From the NCBI RefSeq assembly GCF_963676485.1, contig NZ_OY781114.1, positions 2,196,001 to 2,260,000 on the forward strand: a stretch of 64,000 nt of DNA. The letters run 5' to 3'. The position numbers and the translations under genes are program-made. This DNA comes from an uncultured Cohaesibacter sp. (GTDB lineage: Bacteria > Pseudomonadota > Alphaproteobacteria > Rhizobiales > Cohaesibacteraceae). Under the pieces are notes generated by a model. It was not told where the DNA came from. It did no database searches and saw nothing but the letters and a program-made list of their open reading frames with translations. The number at the start of each line of letters is the position of its first letter. Position 1 is the first letter of the stretch. Below are positions 106-12,292 of the stretch, one piece after another.

Positions 106-127
106 AGTTACGATAACTGGAAATTAT
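106..127 (+). repeat. inverted recombination site A-left (cassette A)
   Basis: The core is GATAA (112-116), spacer CTGGAAA (117-123), TTATG (124-128). The 22 bases 106-127 match the reverse complement of 3797-3818 with one mismatch. Short inverted arms around a 7-base spacer are the layout of tyrosine-recombinase core sites. The ATG of the SHMT-like gene (126) lies inside the site, and the GGAA of the spacer sits where a ribosome-binding site would. Recombination function is inferred. Confidence 0.65.
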
Positions 128-1379
128 GAGCTCTGCTGGCAAAAAACGGAAATACTACGATCGCTTTGAGAGCCTCTCTCCTGGACGGTTGGACGAAATC
201 ATTGCTATGCAGCGCGGACTGATATCAAATCACCTTCACCTTATAGCCAGTGCCTGCTTTCCCTTTCCCTCGATACTTAAGGCGCAAGCGGAACCATCCA
301 CTTTGCTTCCAGTGGAGGGAATGCCGGGAGAACGCTATCTACCAGGCGCTTCGGTGATGGATATTGTCGAGACAGAAGGGGAACGAATGCTACTTGATAT
401 GTTCCCTGATTCAGAAGGATATCGCGCTTCTCTCCAACCGCACTCTGGGACACAGGCCAATCAGATTGTTTACAATGCAATTCTCTCTGAGAAGGACGAG
501 GTCATTTGTCTTAAACCCGCAGATGGCGGGCATATTTCTCATACTGTTTTGATCTCTAGACGAAACAAGACTTATAACTTTGGCCTAACCGCCGAAGGGC
601 ATATTGACTATGGTTTACTCGAGAAACGAGCACTCGAGCATCGTCCCAAACTAATTATCGTTGGAGGGAGCTCTTTGCCAAGGATGATCGACTTTGCCAA
701 GTGCAAAGAGATTGCCCAAAAAGTTGGTGCGCTTCTGCATGCGGATATTTCGCATACATCTCCATTTATAATGGCAGGTTTGCATACCAATGCTCTGCCT
801 TATTGTGATTTTGCAACCTTTAACATGGTGAAAAATCTTAGAGGGCCCAATTCAGGTACTGTGTTATATCGGGAGAACTTTCACGACGCCATTTGCAGGT
901 CTATCTTTCCTGGAACACAAGGGGGAGCCAACGAACCTTGTCTACTCGCTAAATATGCGACACTCTGCGAATGGCAAAACCACAGCATCTCCTCTTTTGC
1001 GGACCGGATTGTTGCGATTTCGCAGCTTTTGGCACGCATTATGACAAGGCGTGGCATCAAGCTCGTCACTGATGGAACTGACAGTCATATTCTACTGCTG
1101 GATTTGAGGGAATATAAAGCAACAGGGGCTGAATTTGAAAAGCGCTTTGAAAGCCATCATGTCCTCTTAAACAAAAACCAAGTTCCTGGTGATCAACGCG
1201 GGCCAAGCGTCTCATCCGGCTTGCGGATAGGTGCAACTAATCTGGCCATCCTGGGTGTGAACCAAGAGGATCTCGAGCTACTGGGAAACTGGATATGTGA
1301 TGTTATTGAAGACAAAGCGGACTTATCCGATATAGTGAGCCAAATCCTGCAAAAGTACCCTCAACCAGCCTACTTTTGA
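126..1379 (+). CDS. serine hydroxymethyltransferase-like PLP enzyme (cassette A)
   Basis: This is a fold-type I PLP enzyme of the SHMT family, 417 residues. The phosphate-binding PHSGTQAN lies at 105-112, a PLP-ring His at 136 (GGHISH), Asp207 in HADISH, and the Schiff-base lysine at 236 in VKNLRGP, equivalent to HKTLRGP of GlyA. The SHMT glutamate (Glu64 in PVEGMPG) and the C-terminal RIG motif are kept. It departs from housekeeping GlyA in several conserved blocks (SACFPF for SENY; RYLPG for RYYGG), so a specialised aldolase or transferase is more likely than folate one-carbon metabolism. The ATG lies in the inverted repeat and overlaps the TGA of an upstream open frame (ATGA). It converges on the STAND gene, 6 bases apart. 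Family sure, substrate unknown. Confidence 0.85.
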   Translation: MSSAGKKRKYYDRFESLSPGRLDEIIAMQRGLISNHLHLIASACFPFPSILKAQAEPSTLLPVEGMPGERYLPGASVMDIVETEGERMLLDMFPDSEGYRASLQPHSGTQANQIVYNAILSEKDEVICLKPADGGHISHTVLISRRNKTYNFGLTAEGHIDYGLLEKRALEHRPKLIIVGGSSLPRMIDFAKCKEIAQKVGALLHADISHTSPFIMAGLHTNALPYCDFATFNMVKNLRGPNSGTVLYRENFHDAICRSIFPGTQGGANEPCLLAKYATLCEWQNHSISSFADRIVAISQLLARIMTRRGIKLVTDGTDSHILLLDLREYKATGAEFEKRFESHHVLLNKNQVPGDQRGPSVSSGLRIGATNLAILGVNQEDLELLGNWICDVIEDKADLSDIVSQILQKYPQPAYF

Positions 1380-1385
1380 GCAAAT

Positions 1386-3797
1386 CTAGTATCGCCAATG
1401 TGGGGACAGGATATAGGGAACTCTCATTTCTGGACCCAATTTACTCGTCGAAAGAAACAATTCCAATCCAGCCAATTTGGGATTCAGAACCCGGGCCATG
1501 ATCTCGTCGGAAAATTGGACGTTCTTGCCGGAATCGAAGTGCACTGCCAATTCATTGGAGAACCAGCCGAGCGTTTCGATAAATCGAATATCCTTAGTTT
1601 TTTGAGCTTTATGATGGATCTTTAGACATGTCTGGCAAGCATTTTTGCCTGAAATTTTGCCAGTCAAAATAGCTAGGGCGAGGCCATTGTAATCAAACAT
1701 TAGGGCGTCCATTGCCAAAGTGCGCGGAGCATCATCTCTTGCCAATTTTAAGAACTCGGCAGCTTCAACGAAATCTTGTCTCATTAGAGCCAGAGCACTC
1801 AGATTGACAAGAGGTTGATAGATCTCACTGGACAATAGAGTCTGGAGACCGTCACACGCTTGCTTGAGATGCTTCTCTGCTTTAGAGGTTTGCCCCTGAA
1901 GCATCTCTACAATTGCGAGATTACTCAACGTCGTTGCAGTCCCGAAGTCACTTCCCAGCTTCTGAAAGCCAGAAACAGAAACTTGCAGCATTTCACTCGC
2001 CTCTGCTTGACAAAACAGATGGCCTGCGCTTCTCAAGATTGCGTATTCGAATTCAGAACAGGTTTCTCGTAGAGCCTTCGAATAGACTCTTTGCGCAATG
2101 TCTGTTGCTTCATCGTTTTTGTTTAGATTGATAAGGATGTTGAAGCTAACAAGATCTCGTTCAGGGCCACTTTTCGCTTCCTTTAAACTGTCTTGAGCGA
2201 TCTCGTACCGGAAAAGTTGAACCAGATACTTTGCTTCGTAAAGATTTGAGAGAGCACGATGTGCTTCGACTTTCTTACACTTTTCAGCAAGGATCAGGCC
2301 AAATCCAAAGAGCGCACATCGCTGAATGGCATTCAATAAAATAGCGATTGTTGACGAAGGGAGAATGTCTACGATGTCCCAACAAACGGTGTCACGGCCC
2401 AACGTTGAAAGATATGCAAACTGTTCCTGGTCCTGCTTGGTGTGAATAAAATTCACGATATGGGCCTGAATTTGGGGACTGGCTCTTACTTCACTTTCAT
2501 GAGTACTTCCTATCAGTCGATCGTAGAGCACATCCTCTTCGGCCAATTGCTTGCTTGCCAGGAGCCGAACAATTGATTGGACTATCTGTTCACGCAATTC
2601 CAGCTTTTCTTCTTCTGGCGTCAAATCAGTGACAACACTGGCGACTCTTTCATGCTCCACTCTAATCTTGTCATGGGTTTCTGAATTGAGAACAAGCAAT
2701 CCCATTGCCATCATATCATTGATGGCCCACGAAATCTGATTGGGATCAGCACCAAGATTTGCAGCTTTCAAAAGTTCTATAAGGTGAACTACTGATAAGC
2801 CGCCGAGTAGAATAACGATAGTCCGAAGAATGAACTGATCAAGCGGAGGAAGTGATCTCACTACATTTTCGTATGTTCCACTTTGAACGGCAAGCTCATC
2901 CCCCAGTTCAAACCTGTCACATATAAATTTGAGCTGAAACCAGATTGCCTTGAGGTTGCCTTCGCTGCGTCGGTAAAGGCTGTTGGCCAAACCTGTCGGA
3001 TCCTCATGATTTGGTAGCACTGTTTCTACAATGACTAGAGTGTCTGACTCTGAAACTTCCTTCAAAGCAATATCATGTGAAATGGCATTTGCAATCTGAG
3101 GCTGCCAATCTTGAGGGGTGTCATGATTGGTTCGCTCGAGGACGATTAGACGCAACTTTGCACCAGCCATTTCAAACGCCTGATCCAGTATTTCCAAGAC
3201 GCTTGATGGTAAAAATTGGATATTGTCGAGCGCTAAAACTACTGGGTGACTATGTGACAATTCAAGACAGTGCAAAAAAAGAGCCGCATCTCCCTGGATC
3301 GGTTTAGCCCTGGTCGGAAGTTTCACAGGCAGGATAGCTTTGACAAATGGGCCAGCTATCGGGATTTGTGCAACTAAGTCACGAAATACTCCGTAAAGAT
3401 AGCCAAGAAAGGACACGTTAAACAGCAGCTTTCTTTGCTTCAGTTTGGAAGCCATTTTTCTGGACAGACTAATAGGATGCTGTCGCGTCGCAGCGCTCTC
3501 TTTGCTGAGGAGCCTTCCCAGTTTCTCGATTATTCTTGATGCTTCGAGATCAGAAGGAGGCGTATCGAGGTATAGTGTTATAACGTCTCTGTTTGCTTGG
3601 GCAATCCGAACCAGCAGTTCCCGAGCAAAAAAACTCTTCCCAACTCCAGAAGTCCCGAGCAATTTAAGGACTCTTGATCGACTTGATCCACCAACATCGA
3701 GAAAAGAAATTGCTTCTTCCAGCTCCTGCTCTCTAAGGACAAAAGGCCAGCCATCTTCAGATCTAAAAAATCGTCCAGTTTCACCATCCACGATCAA
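1386..3797 (-). CDS. STAND-type AAA NTPase with helical-repeat C-terminus (cassette A)
   Basis: This 803-residue protein has a P-loop GTSGVGKS at 48-55 and a Walker B strand VVLALD ending at Asp191. A winged-helix-like middle follows, then a long alpha-helical, TPR-like C-terminal half (roughly 450-780). That is the architecture of STAND NTPases, which act as ligand-triggered switches in regulation, antiphage defence or toxin control; no effector domain is visible. The best start is TTG at 3797, directly after the inverted repeat, whose GGAA could serve as a weak ribosome-binding site. The frame is open through the site but closed by a TGA 27 bases upstream of the TTG. In the present orientation expression may be poor; after inversion the frame would join an open frame coming from the left flank. 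Confidence 0.75.
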   Translation of the reverse strand: MIVDGETGRFFRSEDGWPFVLREQELEEAISFLDVGGSSRSRVLKLLGTSGVGKSFFARELLVRIAQANRDVITLYLDTPPSDLEASRIIEKLGRLLSKESAATRQHPISLSRKMASKLKQRKLLFNVSFLGYLYGVFRDLVAQIPIAGPFVKAILPVKLPTRAKPIQGDAALFLHCLELSHSHPVVLALDNIQFLPSSVLEILDQAFEMAGAKLRLIVLERTNHDTPQDWQPQIANAISHDIALKEVSESDTLVIVETVLPNHEDPTGLANSLYRRSEGNLKAIWFQLKFICDRFELGDELAVQSGTYENVVRSLPPLDQFILRTIVILLGGLSVVHLIELLKAANLGADPNQISWAINDMMAMGLLVLNSETHDKIRVEHERVASVVTDLTPEEEKLELREQIVQSIVRLLASKQLAEEDVLYDRLIGSTHESEVRASPQIQAHIVNFIHTKQDQEQFAYLSTLGRDTVCWDIVDILPSSTIAILLNAIQRCALFGFGLILAEKCKKVEAHRALSNLYEAKYLVQLFRYEIAQDSLKEAKSGPERDLVSFNILINLNKNDEATDIAQRVYSKALRETCSEFEYAILRSAGHLFCQAEASEMLQVSVSGFQKLGSDFGTATTLSNLAIVEMLQGQTSKAEKHLKQACDGLQTLLSSEIYQPLVNLSALALMRQDFVEAAEFLKLARDDAPRTLAMDALMFDYNGLALAILTGKISGKNACQTCLKIHHKAQKTKDIRFIETLGWFSNELAVHFDSGKNVQFSDEIMARVLNPKLAGLELFLSTSKLGPEMRVPYILSPHWRY

Positions 3798-3818
3798 TAA
3801 TTTCCAGTTATCATAACT
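3797..3818 (-). repeat. inverted recombination site A-right (cassette A)
   Basis: Read on the minus strand the core is GATAA, CTGGAAA, TTATT (3812 down to 3796), the inverted partner of 106-127 with 21 of 22 bases identical and the same 7-base spacer. It sits at the 5' end of the STAND gene. The pair bounds a 3.7-kb segment with two convergent genes and no transposase, which argues for an invertible segment rather than an insertion sequence. Confidence 0.65.
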
Positions 3819-4019
3819 ATTTCAGACAATGGCATCACTCTAGTTTCGCCTCGTTGAAACTACAACCAAAAATTAAGAATTCCCTCTAAAATAGAAATGT
3901 TCGTCCATTGAAGGTGTTTTTTCTGGATGGATATAAATGATTGTGTTTATTGGAAAATTTTTCAAAATTCGAACCAACTTCCTCCTGATTTGAAAGGTTG
4001 GCTTAGGAAGTGTCGTCTA

Positions 4020-4071
4020 TTGGACATAGAAGAGTAAAAGCCAAGTTCGGAGGCTTGAGGGATATGTCCAA
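4020..4071 (+). promoter_or_regulatory. hairpin-forming leader of the recombinase gene
   Basis: TTGGACATA (4020-4028) is the exact inverse complement of TATGTCCAA (4063-4071), which ends just before the recombinase ATG at 4074. Inside lies a second stem, AAGCC with GGCTT. The purine-rich GAGGGA that would be the ribosome-binding site lies between the two downstream arms. The structure could hide the translation start, or the two arms could be operator half-sites. Pairing is seen; function is inference. Confidence 0.4.
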
Positions 4072-4073
4072 AA

Positions 4074-5015
4074 ATGAATTTTGAATTCGCGACCCATATT
4101 GAAGACTTCCTGGAGTTCTGCCGTACTCAACAGTACCTTAGTGACAATACGATTTTGAGCTACCGACAGGATCTGCGAGCGTTCGCCAAGTTTCTTGCTC
4201 GCACCGGGACGCAGCCGATACAGAGTGATTGCATTCTCGACTATATGAACGATCTGCGATCGCGACAGGCCTTGGCACCAGCCACGGTGCGTCGAAGAAT
4301 GGTTTGTTTGAAGAAATTCTTTAAGTGGGCGTCCAAGTCTGTACAGGATGGGCCAACACCTTTTGATGGGCTGGAGCTAGACCTCAAGGTGCCGAAAAGG
4401 CTTCCCAGACCTATTGACAGAGATACTCTCCGACAACTGTTCGTATCCGAACTAAGACATCTTCCGAGAGCTCAAAGTCGCACAGAAGCACTGGGCCATT
4501 CTTCAGAATTTGTAACCGTGCTAGCAATCAGGCTGTTGATTGTCACGGGTCTCCGGGTCGGGGAACTCACCCATATCAGAATCAGAGATTTGTCGACAGA
4601 TTGTTCGCGGATCCGCGTTATTGGGAAGGGAAACAGAGAACGCTCGGTTTATGTAACGAATAAACAGCTTTTGTCTGATCTAAAGCACCATTGCACACAG
4701 AGACAGCAAGCTGACCAGCAGGAAGCGTACTTGTTTCTGAATGTAAGGGGCGCACGTTTGTCAGAAGCGGCTTTTCGAAAGCGCCTCAAAAGCCTTTCCG
4801 CTGGATTATCGCTCGGTGAAGTACTGACGCCACATCGTTTCCGCCATTCCGCCGCGACTCTGCTGATTGAAGAGGGGATCGACATCAGAATAGTCCAGCG
4901 TCTGCTTGGGCACGCCTCGATTGCAACCACTGAAATCTATACGCGCGTATCAGATAATTCGCTTATTCAGGCAGTCTCTCGAGCTGACACTTTGGGGCAA
5001 ATCGATCCGAGGTAA
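4074..5015 (+). CDS. XerC/D-like tyrosine recombinase between two inverted-repeat cassettes
   Basis: The 313-residue protein has an N-terminal SAM-like core-binding domain (about 1-95) and a C-terminal catalytic domain. The full tyrosine-recombinase set is present: Arg161 (TGLRVGE), Lys185 (IGKGN), His254 and Arg257 (HRFRH), His280 (LLGH) and nucleophile Tyr289 (EIYTR). It resembles XerC/XerD and phase-variation invertases in size and motifs. It is not the chromosomal dimer-resolution enzyme by context: it lies on an island between two pairs of inverted sites with Xer-like geometry, the right-hand one starting at its stop codon. The likely job is inversion of the flanking segments. It is preceded by a hairpin leader and GAGGGA. 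Confidence 0.88.
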   Translation: MNFEFATHIEDFLEFCRTQQYLSDNTILSYRQDLRAFAKFLARTGTQPIQSDCILDYMNDLRSRQALAPATVRRRMVCLKKFFKWASKSVQDGPTPFDGLELDLKVPKRLPRPIDRDTLRQLFVSELRHLPRAQSRTEALGHSSEFVTVLAIRLLIVTGLRVGELTHIRIRDLSTDCSRIRVIGKGNRERSVYVTNKQLLSDLKHHCTQRQQADQQEAYLFLNVRGARLSEAAFRKRLKSLSAGLSLGEVLTPHRFRHSAATLLIEEGIDIRIVQRLLGHASIATTEIYTRVSDNSLIQAVSRADTLGQIDPR

Positions 5016-5034
5016 CGATAACTTGGAATTATCT
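5010..5034 (+). repeat. inverted recombination site B-left (cassette B)
   Basis: The core is GATAA (5017-5021), CTTGGAA (5022-5028), TTATC (5029-5033), with perfect inverted arms. The 25 bases 5010-5034 are identical to the reverse complement of 7697-7721. The site overlaps the recombinase stop codon (5013-5015). Its spacer differs from that of pair A, which would prevent recombination between the pairs under the usual spacer-identity rule for tyrosine recombinases. Confidence 0.7.
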
Positions 5035-6183
5035 TTCTTGCCTCCCAGCGGTCACATAAAGGAACTTCAACTCCTCGACCAGATCGAACAGATCCAAACG
5101 GACTATCAATCTGAGTTTGGCCACAGGCCTATCAACGTTTCGACATGGGATCCCTCTACGGATGTTATTCAAGCTAATTTGCTCGCAACGATGCCTGAAC
5201 CCAAGGGGGCGGGAAGAAACTACATATTCTCATATACTCTCGGCGACAGCGCGGATCTTCGAAGGGCGCTAGGGTATTCCCATAGCCGATGGAGAAGCCT
5301 CGTCTCACACTCAGGCTCGGCCAGCATTGCCATGACCTGCAATTGGTTGAGAGCATCCGGCGCTAAGAAGATCCTTATTTTGGGGCCGCGATATTTCACC
5401 GTTCCGCATTGCCTGGAAGCAATGGGGATTAAATTTGATACGCAACACTTTGTTCGTGACAATAACGGATATAGAGCGCCAGGAAAATCCGGCGTATCAG
5501 ACTATGACGGCGTCTGGATTACTAATCCAATCTACGGCACCGGTGTGTACATCGACCCTGAGGAGCTGATCCAACTACATGAGGCATGGACCCAAAAAGA
5601 TAAGTTTTTCGTCGTCGATGAGTGTCTCGCCTCACCGAGCCAGTACGTCGGGCCAAGTCTCGTCCCGAATGCGAAGACGACAATCCTAGCAGCCCCACAT
5701 AAGAGCGTCTGTGTAAACGCATACAAGTTTGCTGTTTCTATCGTCGAGCAGTCCCAACTCGAGCACTTCGAACACTGGAGTGATGTTTGGCTAGGATGTC
5801 TTCCCCAATCCAGCCATCAAGCAATTGACCACTTTTTGAACAATGGATTTGAATCGTACCGAGTTCAATTTGAATCAGCTATTCATGAGCAGACATCGGA
5901 GTTTATCGCACTCACGAATGCCATTCCTCTTGCAGTCTTGGATCAAAACGCACTCGGGTATTTTCGGAGTGTCTACTTTCCCAAACTCTCAACTGAACTC
6001 GGCTTGGAATCATCGTTCCTTAGAGAGGCAACCTTCTCAACCGGAACATCTTTCATCCCAGGCATCAGGAACGATTTGGACCCTAGCACTGGTCTATCTT
6101 TCAGGGTAAACCTCGCCGCATTCAACAAGGAGGCGCGCGGGGCATATGTTCGACTTTGTCGATGGCTGTCAGCTAAGTGCTGA
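5023..6183 (+). CDS. fold-type I PLP aminotransferase-like enzyme (cassette B)
   Basis: This looks like an aminotransferase class I/II-fold protein of about 386 residues. Landmarks are a GSASIAM turn where the PLP phosphate binds, ITNPIYGTG resembling the NP motif, VVDECLA supplying the ring-nitrogen Asp, PHKS with a candidate Schiff-base lysine at codon 5701-5703, and a C-terminal SFRVN arginine. No ATG lies near the 5' end. I chose TTG at 5023, inside the site and 10 bases after GAGG; TTG at 5038, 9 bases after the GGAA of the site, is equally possible, and the frame stays open upstream into the recombinase gene. Inverting the cassette would place it in frame behind an ATG in the right flank. 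It overlaps the opposing gene by 11 bases. Substrate unknown. Confidence 0.75.
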   Translation: MELSFLPPSGHIKELQLLDQIEQIQTDYQSEFGHRPINVSTWDPSTDVIQANLLATMPEPKGAGRNYIFSYTLGDSADLRRALGYSHSRWRSLVSHSGSASIAMTCNWLRASGAKKILILGPRYFTVPHCLEAMGIKFDTQHFVRDNNGYRAPGKSGVSDYDGVWITNPIYGTGVYIDPEELIQLHEAWTQKDKFFVVDECLASPSQYVGPSLVPNAKTTILAAPHKSVCVNAYKFAVSIVEQSQLEHFEHWSDVWLGCLPQSSHQAIDHFLNNGFESYRVQFESAIHEQTSEFIALTNAIPLAVLDQNALGYFRSVYFPKLSTELGLESSFLREATFSTGTSFIPGIRNDLDPSTGLSFRVNLAAFNKEARGAYVRLCRWLSAKC

Positions 6184-7696
6184 GCTCTTTCACATCAATC
6201 AGCATGCCCTCGACATCGTTGTGTTTTAATGCGGCCAGCGCATCTCTAATATGAGCGTCTCCAGAAATCTGTGATATCAGAAGCTTTGTCAGGATGTCTT
6301 GATAGGGTTTGGGCAGTTCGTGCGACGGATCCGAAGCTGCTCTCAGAAACTTATTCGGCAAACGTTTTGCCAAAAGCTTCTTGGTTCTAGCGCGAACCAT
6401 GGTCAGCTGTGCTAAACATCCATTTACTAAATACAAAGCAACGTAGAGGGCAAATAGGCTGCTAAGACTGATTTGAATTATTTCAATCCAAGAGCCCTGA
6501 CGGGCTTCCAATAGCCTTGGTTTATTATCCTGCACTGAGGATATAGCTTGGACAGTCTCGAGATAGCCCAAGGTCGAAATCTGCGGCCTTTCCCGGTAGG
6601 TCAATGTTGCTTCGATGAGGTGGCTGGGGTTTGATCTGACGATGGGCAACGTGGCCTCCAGGAGACGGTCGTGCATTTTGGATGCTAAATAAAGAGCCTG
6701 TTGCAGACCATATTCAATTGTTGGTAATTCGTCTGCGGACTCTTCAATATCCTCTCGTAGCTTGGAGAACTCATCGTGTGCATAAATCGCCGCCGCGAAA
6801 GGGAGTTCTTGTCGCGTCTGTAAATGACCCATTACCCGGAAATAAAACTCAACATCATCTCTCTTCAATCCAGCACTGCGCCTTGCCTGGCTCGATAACT
6901 CATCGACTAATGCGATGAACGCCGGCAATCTTATAGAAGGCCTAAAGTTGAGTGCCAGCATGTTGGCATGAAACAGCCAATTCCGATCTCTGTACTGCTT
7001 CAAAAATTGATCCAGCCCCGGCGTAACGCCAGCGCCGTAGGATTGCCCCAAAAAGCCGAACTGAAGCTCATTGAGATTGGTCTCAGTCAAGCCAAACGAT
7101 ATTCCGAGAGCATCGGCATTTATAGTAACGTCCCGAAAGCTGCATTCATCAAAGATCGTGTAGCTCGCCGTGCAATCTGAGAATGATAAACTTGCCAATC
7201 GAGACCCTCTGAAGGTCGATTGAAGCCATGTTGATTTTCGGTTTTTTAGCAACCGGAGATCACACTGATGGAACGTTGATCGTTGAATAGCGGCCTCTTC
7301 CAAATCGCAATCTTCGATAACGCACTCTCGAAAAACATTATCAGAGCAAACGGACGAACGAAGAGTGCAGGACACAAGCCTAGTTCTCGCAAACTTGGTG
7401 GACCGAACATCTGCGGTCTCGAACGACACATTGCATAATTCACAATTTTCGAAGCGCGCGCCTTCGAAGTCACTTCGAGAAAAATCGGCGTCTGAGATTT
7501 TGCAATTGCGAAAGAGTGCGCCGTGAAACAGGGATTGGCGCGCAACTACATTGTCGATCTGCACTCCATCAAAAAACTGATAACTCAAGTCCGCTCTCGA
7601 GAGAAGAACTTGCTTGGCAGCATCCGGCTTTGAAATCGGATCGCCCGCTTTTGGCAGGCTCTTTGCCTCTGAACCTTCGATCTTCGAGTTGGGCAT
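6173..7696 (-). CDS. pentapeptide-repeat protein with a membrane segment (cassette B)
   Basis: The N-terminal third is a pentapeptide-repeat beta-helix of A(D/N)LxX type, with repeated F-x-N-C and F-x-G-A/S units over roughly 150 residues. A helical middle follows, then one hydrophobic segment (SLSSLFALYVALYLVNGCL) about 80 residues from the C-terminus, followed by a basic stretch. This suggests a membrane-tethered cytosolic scaffold. I chose ATG at 7696, which follows GGAA of the recombination site by 6 bases. An in-frame ATG at 7750 would add 18 residues encoded across the site (containing GNDNLELS). Function unknown; pentapeptide-repeat proteins range from gyrase mimics to scaffolds. Confidence 0.7.
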   Translation of the reverse strand: MPNSKIEGSEAKSLPKAGDPISKPDAAKQVLLSRADLSYQFFDGVQIDNVVARQSLFHGALFRNCKISDADFSRSDFEGARFENCELCNVSFETADVRSTKFARTRLVSCTLRSSVCSDNVFRECVIEDCDLEEAAIQRSTFHQCDLRLLKNRKSTWLQSTFRGSRLASLSFSDCTASYTIFDECSFRDVTINADALGISFGLTETNLNELQFGFLGQSYGAGVTPGLDQFLKQYRDRNWLFHANMLALNFRPSIRLPAFIALVDELSSQARRSAGLKRDDVEFYFRVMGHLQTRQELPFAAAIYAHDEFSKLREDIEESADELPTIEYGLQQALYLASKMHDRLLEATLPIVRSNPSHLIEATLTYRERPQISTLGYLETVQAISSVQDNKPRLLEARQGSWIEIIQISLSSLFALYVALYLVNGCLAQLTMVRARTKKLLAKRLPNKFLRAASDPSHELPKPYQDILTKLLISQISGDAHIRDALAALKHNDVEGMLIDVKELST

Positions 7697-7721
7697 AGAT
7701 AATTCCAAGTTATCGTTACCT
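7697..7721 (-). repeat. inverted recombination site B-right (cassette B)
   Basis: Exact 25-base inverted copy of 5010-5034, core GATAA, CTTGGAA, TTATC on the minus strand (7714 down to 7698). It bounds cassette B on the right and lies at the 5' end of the pentapeptide-repeat gene. Beyond it, minus-strand ATG codons at 7750 and 7758 open two short frames toward the site; the 7750 frame runs through it into the cassette gene. Confidence 0.7.
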
Positions 7722-7977
7722 ATTGAATTTGCGGACAATCTACCACGCATTTGTTCATGAATTCAATCTAGGCGTGAAAAAAAAGCCGATTTTGGTGGAA
7801 TTCAAAACACTTGCCAGAGCTGAGTTGGGTTTTTCCTTCTCAATTCTGGCCTCGTAAAAATGCGACTACCCCGCCGGTCCGTAAGTTAGTGAGCCGTGAA
7901 GATTTGGTGTCCCCCCTCCCTCTAGATATCTCTGAGTTCCCGCTCTTTTATTCCTGATAGTATGGTAATTAAGGATG

Positions 7978-8784: not shown

Positions 8785-9034
8785 AACCGTATCTCCATGG
8801 TTTATTGTGTAACCAGGAAAACGGTAGTGGATGATTTGAGTTGGTTGATAAGTCCCAGGAAATTTCTGATTTTGGGAAAGTCTATGTATATCATTGGTAA
8901 TGAAATGTAATTAATATACTGAATTTATGTGATTAAATAGTCTGTGTTAAGAAAGGTGAGAAACCCCAAAAATTTCGAAGTTGCAGCATTATCTGCTGTT
9001 TATCTGATATCTGCTCAGGATAGCTCTTATAAAA

Positions 9035-10303
9035 TCAATGTGAATTGGTAGGGCTTCTGAGAGGCACGACATCGCCGGAAATCTCTTTGCCCATTAGAAA
9101 CTGAGACCATGCATGCAGCACGGCGCGACGTCTTTGCAACATATCTGAGCGGCGATACGCGCGTTCAACCTCAGAGCCGACTTTGTGGGCAAGGCTGATC
9201 TCTGCCAAGTCGCGCTCATAGCCCCTTTCTGCTGCCCAGTCCCTGAAGCTGGAGCGTAGACCGTGGGGCACGGCTGGGCGTTTTGAACGTGGATCTAGCC
9301 AACCTGTCTTACCCTTCTCTGTTTCTGCCTGATGCATGCGACGCATGACGGCTGAAAGCGACATGTCGGACATTTGCCCACCCTTAGGCGCGAAAAAAAC
9401 ATAAGGAGAGTTTTCCATCGTCGGTAAGCTCTTCACAAGCTTTGCCGCTGCATCTGGTAGAGGTACACGATGCTCTTTAGCTGCCTTCATGCGGGTTGCA
9501 GGAATGATCCAGACAGGACCATCTTTGGCCTTCAGATCAATCTCATCCCAAGTAGCGCCTCGTACTTCACCAGACCGTGCAAGCGTCAGGGATAGAAACT
9601 GAAGAGCCGAGGCCGCCATGCCTTGCCGATGTTGAAGAGCATCCCACCATGAGGGAATGTCTGCCAGAGCAATAGCAGGTTGATTGCCGGTCTTTGCGAC
9701 CTTGGAAGGCTTTGGCAGGATCTCGGATAGGTTGCCCTTCCAACGAGCAGGATTCTCGCCTTCTCGATATCCGGCAACGGTCGCCCAGGACAAAACGCTT
9801 TCAATGCGCCCTCTAAGGCGAGAGGCTGTCTCAGTCTTTTCTTCCCAGATGGGTTCAAGCACGCGAAGGACATCAGGCAATCGAATGGATTTGACATCCA
9901 TTTTGCCTAGAACCGGAACCGCATAGCTCTCCAGGGTCGAGCGCCATTGCTTCTTGTGCTTGTCGTTACGGAATTCCTTCTCCTTGGCGGCGAGATATTT
10001 GCCAACGGCATCCGAAAAGGTGATCGTGCCTTTCTTGGCCTGTTTGTCAGCCAGTGGATCTCCACCATTATAAACGTTGCGTTTATTCTCGAAGGCCTTG
10101 TCCCTTGCTTCAGCCAAGGTCACCAAAGGAAAGCTGCCCAACCCCAACTCGCGTCTTTTTCCATGAATGGTAATGCGCTGGATCCAGAATTTAGCACCGC
10201 TTTTATCAACGCGGAGAAAGAGGCCAGTACCGGATTTGTCGTGGTATTTTCCGGGCTCTTTGACGGAGCGGACAAACACCGCTGAAAGTTTGGATCCTAA
10301 CAT
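9035..10303 (-). CDS. int: P4-type tyrosine integrase (DUF4102 N-terminus)
   Basis: The 422-residue protein begins with the arm-binding domain typical of P4 integrases (GLFLRVDKSGAKFWIQR, LGLGSFPLVTLAEAR). A core-binding domain follows, then the catalytic domain with LARSGEVRG (Arg), PHGLRSSFRDW (His and Arg) and LAHKVGSEVERAY (His, Tyr nucleophile). It catalyses integration and excision of the island, normally at a tRNA 3' end. Its start faces the tRNA-Ser-like sequence at 10443-10462, so the element lies to its left. It is a different subfamily from the recombinase at 4074. Confidence 0.92.
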   Translation of the reverse strand: MLGSKLSAVFVRSVKEPGKYHDKSGTGLFLRVDKSGAKFWIQRITIHGKRRELGLGSFPLVTLAEARDKAFENKRNVYNGGDPLADKQAKKGTITFSDAVGKYLAAKEKEFRNDKHKKQWRSTLESYAVPVLGKMDVKSIRLPDVLRVLEPIWEEKTETASRLRGRIESVLSWATVAGYREGENPARWKGNLSEILPKPSKVAKTGNQPAIALADIPSWWDALQHRQGMAASALQFLSLTLARSGEVRGATWDEIDLKAKDGPVWIIPATRMKAAKEHRVPLPDAAAKLVKSLPTMENSPYVFFAPKGGQMSDMSLSAVMRRMHQAETEKGKTGWLDPRSKRPAVPHGLRSSFRDWAAERGYERDLAEISLAHKVGSEVERAYRRSDMLQRRRAVLHAWSQFLMGKEISGDVVPLRSPTNSH

Positions 10304-10542: not shown

Positions 10543-11400
10543 TTAGCTTTTGGGCTGTCCTGCGAAGGCTTGCCGTGAGGTGGCTTTGACAAGGATGATC
10601 TTGCGAGCAAATGCGACAAGAAACAGGGCCGTCAGAATGAGAATGATGGTTGGGGCCGGGGCGCTATCAAGGAAAAAGCACAAATAGGTGCCTGCGAGCA
10701 TTGACCCCATGCAAACGGCAACTGCGACCCAGAGCATTGTGCTGAATTTGCGCACCAAGAGGAGGGCGATGGCCCCCGGCGCTATGAGTAGGCCAATGGC
10801 CAGAATAAGCCCTGCCGCCGAAAGCGTGGCAACGATGGTGAGGGAAAGCAGGGTCAGCAAGCCATAATGCAAGAGATTGACCGAAAGTCCCGAGACACGG
10901 GCCTGTGCCGGATCGAAGCTGTGCAGCAACAGGTCTTTCCATTTGACGAGCAAGCAGACCGCAACGATCAGGGAAATGACACCGGCATTGAGCAAATCGC
11001 TTTGATTCACGCCGAGCATGTTGCCAAACAGGACGTGATCAAGATGCACGTTGGTATGGATCGAAACATAAAGCACGATGCCCACCGCAAACATGCCCGA
11101 AAAGACAACGCCCATGACCGTATCATGCTTGATGCGGCTGTTGGCCGATAGATAACCGGTGGAGAGTGCACAAACCATGCCAGCGCCAAAGGCGCCTATC
11201 AACAGCGGAAAGCCGAAGATATAGGCCAGAACGATGCCGGGTAGAATGGCATGGCTGACGGAATCACCCATCAAGGCCCAGCCCTTGAGCACCAGAAAGC
11301 AGGATAAAAGGGCTGTTGGCACAGAAACGATCATCGCAATGAGGAAGGCATTCTGCATGAAGCCGAACTGGAAGGGCAGAAGCAGGGCATCAAGGCTCAT
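10543..11400 (-). CDS. sitD: Mn2+/Fe2+ ABC transporter permease
   Basis: A polytopic permease of the ABC-3 family (ZnuB/TroCD/SitCD type), about 285 residues with roughly eight membrane segments and the conserved GDSVSHAILPGIVLAY region. It forms the membrane channel with SitC. I chose ATG 11400 ([11 protein letters not shown]), which overlaps the end of sitC by 11 bases; a longer frame begins 12 codons upstream. It is the last gene of the sitABCD operon and lies next to the island boundary. Confidence 0.88.
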   Translation of the reverse strand: MSLDALLLPFQFGFMQNAFLIAMIVSVPTALLSCFLVLKGWALMGDSVSHAILPGIVLAYIFGFPLLIGAFGAGMVCALSTGYLSANSRIKHDTVMGVVFSGMFAVGIVLYVSIHTNVHLDHVLFGNMLGVNQSDLLNAGVISLIVAVCLLVKWKDLLLHSFDPAQARVSGLSVNLLHYGLLTLLSLTIVATLSAAGLILAIGLLIAPGAIALLLVRKFSTMLWVAVAVCMGSMLAGTYLCFFLDSAPAPTIILILTALFLVAFARKIILVKATSRQAFAGQPKS

Positions 11401-12292
11401 ATCTGATTTCCTTCCGCTCAGGTGTGATGGGCGCATTCTTTATCACAAGAGCCTTTTTGGCTTTGCGCTTGGCCGCCAGCAACCCATGCTTGGGAGCAAC
11501 CAGAAAGGCGATCAGGAAGATCAGCGTTTGCAGGGTCACGATCACTCCACCGGTGGCACCATCCAGAAAATAGCTGATATAGGCCCCTAGAAAGCCAGTC
11601 AGTGCCCCGATGACGATTGCGGTGATGATGAGCCGCGGGAACCGGTCGCAGAAGAGATAGGCTGTCGCGCCGGGTGTGACGACCATGGCGATCACGAGGA
11701 AAGCCCCGACCGTTTGCATCGCTGCCACCACCGAAGCCGAGAGCAGCACAAAGAAGATCGCCTTGAGCAGCGGTGGATTGAGGCCGATAGTGCGGGCGTG
11801 GCTCTCGTCAAAGAAGGTGACCATCAGATCCTTCCATTTGGCTGTCAGAATGATCAAAGAAATGAAGCCAATGAGCGCGAGTTGCAGGGTATCTTGTGGC
11901 GTAATGGCAAGAATGTTGCCCATGGTGATGGTCTGAATGCTGATGGCCATCGGGTTGATGGAAATCATGAACAGGCCAAGGCCGAAGAAGGATGTAAAAA
12001 TCAGCCCGATGATCACGTCGATCTTGAGGCCGGAGCGTTCGGAGAGAAACAACATGCTGCCCGCCGCAAGGCCCCCCGCAATGAAGGCGCCGAGCGCAAA
12101 GGGCAGCCCGAGCATATAGGCTCCGGCCACGCCTGGTACGACCGAATGGGACAGGGCGTCCCCGATCAGTGACCAGCCCTTGAGCATGAGAAAGGCCGAC
12201 AGGAAGGCGCAGACACAGCCGACCAGCGCCGAGACCCACATGGCGTTGGTCATATAGTTATAGTCGAAGGGCTCTAGAAGGATCTCCATCAT
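11390..12292 (-). CDS. sitC: Mn2+/Fe2+ ABC transporter permease
   Basis: The second ABC-3 family permease, 300 residues, with [19 protein letters not shown] near the N-terminus and eight or so hydrophobic segments. A basic tail ([16 protein letters not shown]) follows the last one. Its start overlaps the sitB stop and its end overlaps sitD, so all four genes are translationally linked. It is paralogous to SitD and together they form the heterodimeric transmembrane part. Confidence 0.88.

Follow-up and report, generated by a model that had tools for sequence, protein, structure and literature searches.

The window analysed here, a stretch of 64,000 nucleotides (nt) from the genome of an uncultured Cohaesibacter sp., contains at positions 106 to 7,721 an element in which the gene of one tyrosine recombinase stands between two pairs of short inverted sites, each of which encloses two convergent genes. 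The best-supported reading of this element is that of two independent inversion cassettes served by one tyrosine recombinase, that is, an either/or inversion switch of the phage Mu G type, probably doubled here and operated by a tyrosine recombinase, to which we assign a probability of about 0.78. An earlier note, made from the letters of the window, had proposed that one enzyme runs two independent switches, and this proposal is supported, indirectly, by the sites flanking the recombinase, by the recurrence of the layout, by borders of homology between genomes, and by the ends of contigs.

The site pairs and the recombinase of the window

Throughout, A is the cassette upstream of the recombinase and B the one downstream. 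The features of the locus, including genes for pyridoxal phosphate (PLP) enzymes, are as follows.

106-127, + strand: outer site of cassette A, which provides a Shine-Dalgarno-like GGAA and the AT of an ATG start codon
126-1379, + strand: serine hydroxymethyltransferase (SHMT)-like PLP enzyme (PF00464, 3e-78), outer gene of cassette A
1386-3797, - strand: AAA_16 + TPR STAND-like protein, inner gene of cassette A, with a TTG start at the site
3797-3818, - strand: inner site of cassette A, from the inverted-repeat search
3819-4073, no strand: intergenic region of the hub between the pairs, with a possible promoter toward cassette A and the 5′ untranslated region (5′UTR) of the recombinase, which holds a weakly supported hairpin
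4074-5015, + strand: XerC/D-like tyrosine recombinase (PF00589, 6.6e-37)
5010-5034, + strand: inner site of cassette B, which includes the recombinase stop codon
about 5032-6183, + strand: aminotransferase-like PLP protein, inner gene of cassette B, with weak profile matches
6173-7696 (or 7750), - strand: pentapeptide-repeat protein, outer gene of cassette B, the frame being open through the site to 7750
7697-7721, - strand: outer site of cassette B, from the inverted-repeat search
7722-7800, - strand: promoter-like outer flank of cassette B, TTGAAT-18-TAGATT, the -10 ending 15 nt before the site, read from sequence only

All four sites that the earlier note had described as two inverted pairs (106/3818 and 5010/7721) are present, and they exceed chance by far: the pattern GATAA-N7-TTAT gives six strand matches at four places in the window, where 0.28 per 64 kb are expected, and 100 shuffles of the window never gave more than three. 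Pair A (106-127 and 3797-3818) is an inverted repeat of 22 nt with one mismatch, and pair B (5010-5034 and 7697-7721) is a perfect one of 25 nt. The sequence CGATAACNNNNRATTAT occurs three times in the 5.08-Mb genome to which the window belongs, each time within this locus, and the fourth site deviates from it by one arm base. The spacers, CTGGAAA in pair A and CTTGGAA in pair B, are exactly as had been claimed, equal within a pair and different between the pairs. Sites and genes are likewise arranged as described, with the small correction that the stop codon of the recombinase (5013-5015) falls within the left B site. Two convergent genes per pair, with 5′ ends abutting the sites, were confirmed: the genes of cassette A begin 2 and 1 nt inside the end of the core and the pentapeptide gene 2 nt beyond it, and the PLP gene of cassette B, which has no ATG at the site, offers TTG starts only.

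The complete XerC/D-like recombinase reported between the pairs proved intact. Its class is indicated by the match to PF00589 and by residues R161, K185, H254, R257, H280 and Y289, which are invariant in 13 aligned relatives and which we take to be the catalytic R-K-H-R-H-Y set. The protein stays under the NCBIfam cut-offs of all 13 models matched, and it was rejected as the XerC or XerD of dif resolution (197 of 335 and 187 of 330 bits, under the equivalog cut-offs), as an integron integrase (99.5 of 265 bits, TIGR02249) and as a Fim-type DNA invertase (50 of 221 bits, NF007370, and 38 of 222 bits, NF007371).

Recurrence, anatomy and cargo of the cassettes

Relatives of the recombinase were collected from the host family (20 genomes, 4 matching at 1e-40), the class (385 genomes drawn, 12 matching at 1e-50), the phylum (398 genomes drawn, 5 matching at 1e-70), a species-genome collection (pattern scan, 22 loci), plasmids (18 records, all retrieved) and viral contigs (30 loci, the best of which, L135, was examined). 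A phage collection gave 32 records, of which the 10 listed, at 28-32% identity, were taken as general Xer relatives. The families of G306 (7 genomes) and G110 (5 genomes) held no additional recombinase at 1e-70.

Searching for such sites around homologues of the recombinase, as the earlier note had suggested, showed that the layout recurs with other cargo. With a pair defined as an inverted repeat with the core ATAA-N6/7-TTAT, one arm of which lies at most 700 nt from the recombinase, pairs are present in 18 of 60 recombinase loci (16 distinct, two being near-identical Phaeobacter plasmids), and two members, G432 and G506, are from outside the class. Seven of the 12 matching class genomes have pairs (that of G047 is decayed), two have one site at a contig end, two stop short of any site, and in G271 nothing of the kind adjoins either of the two recombinases. 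Within the host family, four of the 20 genomes bear the recombinase, and in each of these four there are sites to either side of it. The pairs are complete at both A and B in the window, G017 and G018; G014 combines a complete A pair with the inner B site only, and an IS481-like transposase gene lies there about 0.4 kb past a gene fragment at B. The recombinase stop codon lies in the inner B site, or within a base or two of it, in all four. Spacers of A and B are unlike in 4/4 of these genomes, which is no strong statistic, since spacers vary widely anyway.

The congeners G014 and G017 share a hub of 1259 bp at 97.0% identity, which starts at the B core and reaches 12 nt beyond the A core; outside it only two site-sized matches were found in 16 kb (blastn, word size 11, 1e-5), the cassettes on both sides of the common hub being unrelated. 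The window and G014 match at 71% over 1066 bp, a stretch bounded on one side by the final base of the B core and ending on the other inside the intergenic region. Borders of homology at the sites are what an exchange at the sites would be expected to leave.

The anatomy of the cassettes was examined in 20 distinct pairs, namely 19 beside a recombinase and one on the recombinase-less contig G110:C55 (L080). Accepted inverted repeats are 16-44 nt long. The core is the same in both arms in 20/20 pairs, and inverted repeats with an identical crossover spacer, by which an inverton is recognised, are present in all 20; both counts are partly a matter of construction, pairs having been found as near-identical repeats. 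Frames of both directions start at the arms in 18 of the 20 pairs, and in 12 exactly two genes meet; such anatomy was seen in none of 16 chance inverted repeats from 33 control stretches, where overlapping window pieces may count one chance repeat twice. The exceptions are G047, which is decayed, and G017 A; the left frame at the site of G017 B has merely 100 amino acids (aa). In G017 A (L033, about 8860-9850), the last 164 aa of the left open reading frame repeat the right gene at 99%; this palindromic duplication goes with a truncated methyltransferase. In 32 of 40 ends the start codon, chosen by a scripted rule that may be wrong in individual cases, is placed between -2 and +8 nt relative to the end of the core; 18 ends have it at exactly -2, where the last AT of the arm becomes ATG. 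GGA, GGG or GAG, resembling a Shine-Dalgarno motif, is found in 17 of 20 spacers. Because spacers carry this motif and starts lie in or beside the arms, the cassettes look promoterless. Where there is one gene per side, the stop codons overlap by at most 65 nt or stand at most about 30 nt apart.

As to cargo, 11 of the 20 cassettes have on one side the gene of a P-loop STAND/NLR-like protein of the AAA_16, AAA_22, NB-ARC or NACHT type, some with Mrr, SIR2 or serine-esterase-like parts; these were assigned by a family match or by similarity to such a protein, the G018 A match being weak. Among the others, two cassettes have a pentapeptide-repeat protein on this side, two a member of a 415-aa family that matches nothing in Pfam, two a protein that by eye seems membrane-bound, one a TIR/HEAT-like protein (weak) and one an unknown protein; the last is the decayed cassette. 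In 19/20 cassettes the gene facing it is that of a small-molecule or tailoring enzyme: SHMT-like enzymes, aminotransferases, methyltransferases, phosphoenolpyruvate (PEP)-mutase-methyltransferases, carbamoyltransferases, CDP-alcohol phosphotransferases, ATP-grasp ligases (weak in G026), glycosyltransferases (by annotation in Phaeobacter) and an aminotransferase with a sulfotransferase. The G014 aminotransferase, which has no Pfam match, was assigned by 24% identity to that of the window, whose own matches to PF00155 (0.009) and to a CobD-like profile (3.5e-7) are both below cut-off and for which a PDB search gave no match. Five pair types recur across lineages with BLAST matches on both sides (20-49% identity), namely ATP-grasp/STAND (G110:C55 and Methylobacterium), carbamoyltransferase/STAND (G018 B and Ruegeria), PEP-mutase/NB-ARC (G110 and G246), methyltransferase/415-aa (G017 and G101) and CDP-alcohol phosphotransferase/membrane-like (G017 and Devosia). 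Three resemblances are confined to one side: the ligase of G018 A, the pentapeptide protein of the window and G014, and the glycosyltransferase of Phaeobacter and G506. It speaks against strict matching that, taken as broad enzyme classes, ATP-grasp and glycosyltransferase genes are also combined with different partners (G026, G346). Of 372 class genomes, one contained the 415-aa partner, inside its cassette. Structure predictions gave a mean predicted local distance difference test (pLDDT) of 31 for this partner and 38 for the PLP protein and were of no use. PADLOC gave single SIR2, TIR and LmuA-like matches for partners in relatives, and two weak matches (E 0.008-0.009) for the window genes.

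Some further observations concern loci without a complete pair. In Litoreibacter roseus (L008, 1881-5933), a site adjoins a recombinase that is the sister of the Ruegeria one, and the stretch ends before a possible second arm; a second recombinase is located at 11216-12154. Solitary site copies in loci of the pairless type (L012 4556-4577, L014 1257-1278, L022 6890-6916, and G271:C11 7547-7561) lie kilobases from the recombinase or on another contig, and the arms of the L022 copy are nearly complete and symmetric. Several pairless recombinases are encoded on Roseobacter-group plasmids (L176-L185) near defence-type genes (Qat, TIR, and SMC/exonuclease pairs), which suggests another role for this subclade.

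Promoter-like flanks, orientation and rival explanations

A first scoring of the flanks found promoter-like sequence at the inner flank of A and the outer flank of B. When 75-nt flanks were rescored, the A-inner/B-outer side scored higher in 18 of 19 pairs (Wilcoxon p 9e-5), a rule formed and rerun on largely the same data with a weight matrix. Held-out cassettes agree with the rule in 2/2 cases for B, and the held-out A-inner flank of Litoreibacter is reached by 4.7% of random windows. If the rule is applied to the window, its B cassette should at present express the pentapeptide protein and its A cassette, with much less certainty, the STAND-like one.

Joined with the anatomy, these flanks suggest how the element may work. 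The recombinase of the element would flip both cassettes, each by way of the inverted sites that enclose it. A cassette is nearly pure coding DNA, with two genes (or gene sets) that begin at opposite sites and run toward each other until their ends meet, and the site would supply ribosome binding through GGA, GGG or GAG in the spacer and often also the AT of the start codon, so that either gene could be translated after a flip. Transcription would come from a fixed promoter beside one site, on the hub side for A and on the outer side for B. With the translation start carried by the site, inversion would therefore select which of the two genes is expressed, and expression of the two would be mutually exclusive. 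A spacer that is the same within a pair and different between pairs should keep the two switches apart, and matching sites should permit cassettes to be exchanged between genomes.

Contig ends in three draft assemblies fit the forks or merges that mixed orientations would produce. The recombinase contig of G306 passes the site into a gene resembling, by eye, the 415-aa partner and ends 141 nt after the shared stretch begins, and a second contig enters the same site from a different flank and has 28 shared nt before it stops. In G054, a final 99-mer that starts at the site is common to the recombinase contig and one other contig, and the bases preceding it differ. Contig G110:C55, of 3726 nt, consists of one cassette, with 79 nt of flank and a 20-nt repeat first and the other repeat last. 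The lengths of 99 and 141 nt are presumably k values of a common assembler. Contig ends about 7-95 nt from the recombinase start in G022, G212, G026 and G437 were not counted, having no visible site. Opposite orientations in relatives, a comparison that the earlier note had suggested, were found between species for the same pair types: relative to the recombinase, the CDP-alcohol phosphotransferase/membrane-like pair points one way in G017 B and the other way in Devosia, carbamoyltransferase/STAND differs between G018 B and Ruegeria A (different slots), and methyltransferase/415-aa partner differs between G101 and G306 (read from the contig end in G306). Among near-identical plasmids none was flipped: three Phaeobacter plasmids all have the same orientation.

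The contig ends could also stem from duplicated cassettes, the main alternative to mixed orientations, or from long repeats, the switches being now static. The shared end of G054 is compatible with an inverted repeat of at least 99 nt, the cassette contigs of G054 and G306 were not found, and no further contig with the C55 flank was found in G110. A long repeat leaves unexplained that the second G306 contig stops after 28 shared nt, the lengths of 99, 99 and 141 nt agree with a single type of assembler k value, and accepted repeats are 16-44 nt long; we consider static switches unlikely. Also rather improbable is joint transcription of the two genes, driven by promoters to either side of the cassette, with orientation of little importance. 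Such an arrangement would suit cassette A of the window, the single exception to the promoter rule, whose outer flank scores 7.7 and inner flank 6.0, and the inner flank of G054, which is fairly high (reached by 8% of random windows); gene types that recur together might also act together. A-outer and B-inner flanks, however, have a median random-window fraction of about 0.6, and gene ends that overlap or nearly touch leave no room for a terminator.

The 97% common hub with unrelated cassettes on both sides, together with the occurrence of pair types in various slots and lineages, would suit a recombinase that mainly swaps whole cassettes with incoming DNA, inversion being a by-product without regulatory meaning. 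Exchange does not need convergent pairs with starts at both sites, promoter-like sequence lies mostly on one flank, and the contig ends fit mixed orientation, so that we hold exchange as the main role to be improbable; exchange and inversion can coexist. Inverted terminal repeats and differing surroundings are also what a transposon-like element with two passenger genes would show. This last explanation is very improbable and was rejected, since the recombinase is of the tyrosine type and lies outside the repeats, the arms hold start codons, and the hub sits between the site pairs, not within them.

Several findings weigh against the reading as inversion switches. No pair lies beside the gene in 42 of the 60 recombinase loci, 19 of which form one clade. 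In a tree of 44 of the 60 recombinases (duplicates, partial matches and one with a stop being left out), this clade (100/100, on a long branch, its named members being Rhodobacterales) is nested among members, and the member label (17 tree rows, two being one-site loci) requires at least seven changes; the layout is thus not one clean clade, and long branches leave several deep joins unsure. Decay is evident in G017 A and G047, and transposase genes lie beside G014 B and inside Ruegeria A. Besides the shared data behind the promoter rule and the exception in cassette A, AT-richness explains part of the flank scores (median shuffle fraction 0.395 for A and 0.155 for B), and the G110:C55 flank is random-like, being reached by 41% of random windows. 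No near-identical strains with opposite orientations were found, and second copies of two other cassettes, sought among near-identical plasmids, were not found.

Known systems, possible function and neighbouring features

In phage Mu, the G segment is inverted by Gin, and this segment and the P, C and e14 segments depend on a serine recombinase and an enhancer and provide tail-fibre alternatives of one function. The element resembles the Mu system in its invertible segment, in two alternative convergent gene sets beside a fixed promoter, and in the adjacent recombinase, and differs in that its recombinase is of the tyrosine type, that the paired genes are unrelated, and that one recombinase can have as many as two segments. 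Integron cassettes are single genes with folded attC sites that are excised as circles. They too are promoterless, use an external promoter and an Xer-like recombinase and are exchanged as modules, whereas the window recombinase reaches 99.5 against the integron-integrase cut-off of 265. Engineered cassette exchange with heterospecific lox or FRT sites likewise employs inverted pairs with private spacers and one recombinase, here found in natural genomes. Tyrosine-recombinase hsdS shuffling and shufflons (PsrA, Rci) share the tyrosine recombinase, inverted repeats in or at gene starts, and alternative versions, but recombine variants of one protein, whereas here unrelated proteins lie in spacer-closed cassettes. 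Fim/RecV-type invertons share the tyrosine recombinase, the short inverted repeats and an expected population mixture, but flip promoters or regulatory DNA, whereas here whole genes would be moved past a fixed promoter.

A full-text literature search gave no description of such cassettes, and large inverton catalogues may contain loci of this kind unremarked. STAND and GT4 conflict systems are the subject of PMC8195603, in the available part of which the words recombinase and inversion are absent; PMC5903667 gives inversion signatures in 0/4 Alphaproteobacteria samples, and PMC11868660 is a review.

If correct, the proposed switch would extend phase variation by a class in which complete, unrelated genes alternate, the ribosome-binding site and start codon are built into the recombination site, and natural orthogonal spacers let one enzyme drive two switches. 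That small-molecule or tailoring enzymes are repeatedly paired with immune-receptor-like or other effector-like proteins points to a functional connection between two proteins whose joint production is not predicted, and the sites and recombinase could act as a compact natural toolkit for cassette exchange. As to function, we infer that cells hedge their bets between a small-molecule or tailoring enzyme on the one hand and, on the other, a matched protein that is STAND/NLR-like or otherwise resembles a sensor or effector. A more specific version, which we regard as doubtful, is a heritable either/or system in which inversion would prevent any one cell from having both the enzyme and the STAND/NLR-like receptor cognate to it: the enzyme would mark the cell or make a ligand, the receptor would answer the mark, and the population would divide into cells that are marked and cells that respond. 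Each locus would have two such orthogonal switches, and species would trade entire modules by way of matching site pairs.

Several minor features of the window may be added. An ATG at 7750, in the outer flank of B, opens a frame that passes the site (GNDNLELS) and joins the pentapeptide gene; the frame of the B site likewise runs into the PLP gene, so that the pentapeptide or PLP gene might be read from outside; the 7750 ATG would sit upstream of the predicted -10. The 5′UTR of the recombinase contains a conserved inverted repeat around the ribosome-binding site (window 4020-4074, GGACATA...TATGTCC; L032 8096-8155). A hairpin hiding the Shine-Dalgarno sequence is not claimed, folding giving z values of -1.4 (window) and -1.8 (G014), and -1.7 in G018 for another fold. 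A second, arm-domain integrase is encoded near the element (window 9035-10303; L005), and beyond the element's opposite end there are large genes, read by eye, protein-kinase-like ones among them, which together suggest a genomic island.

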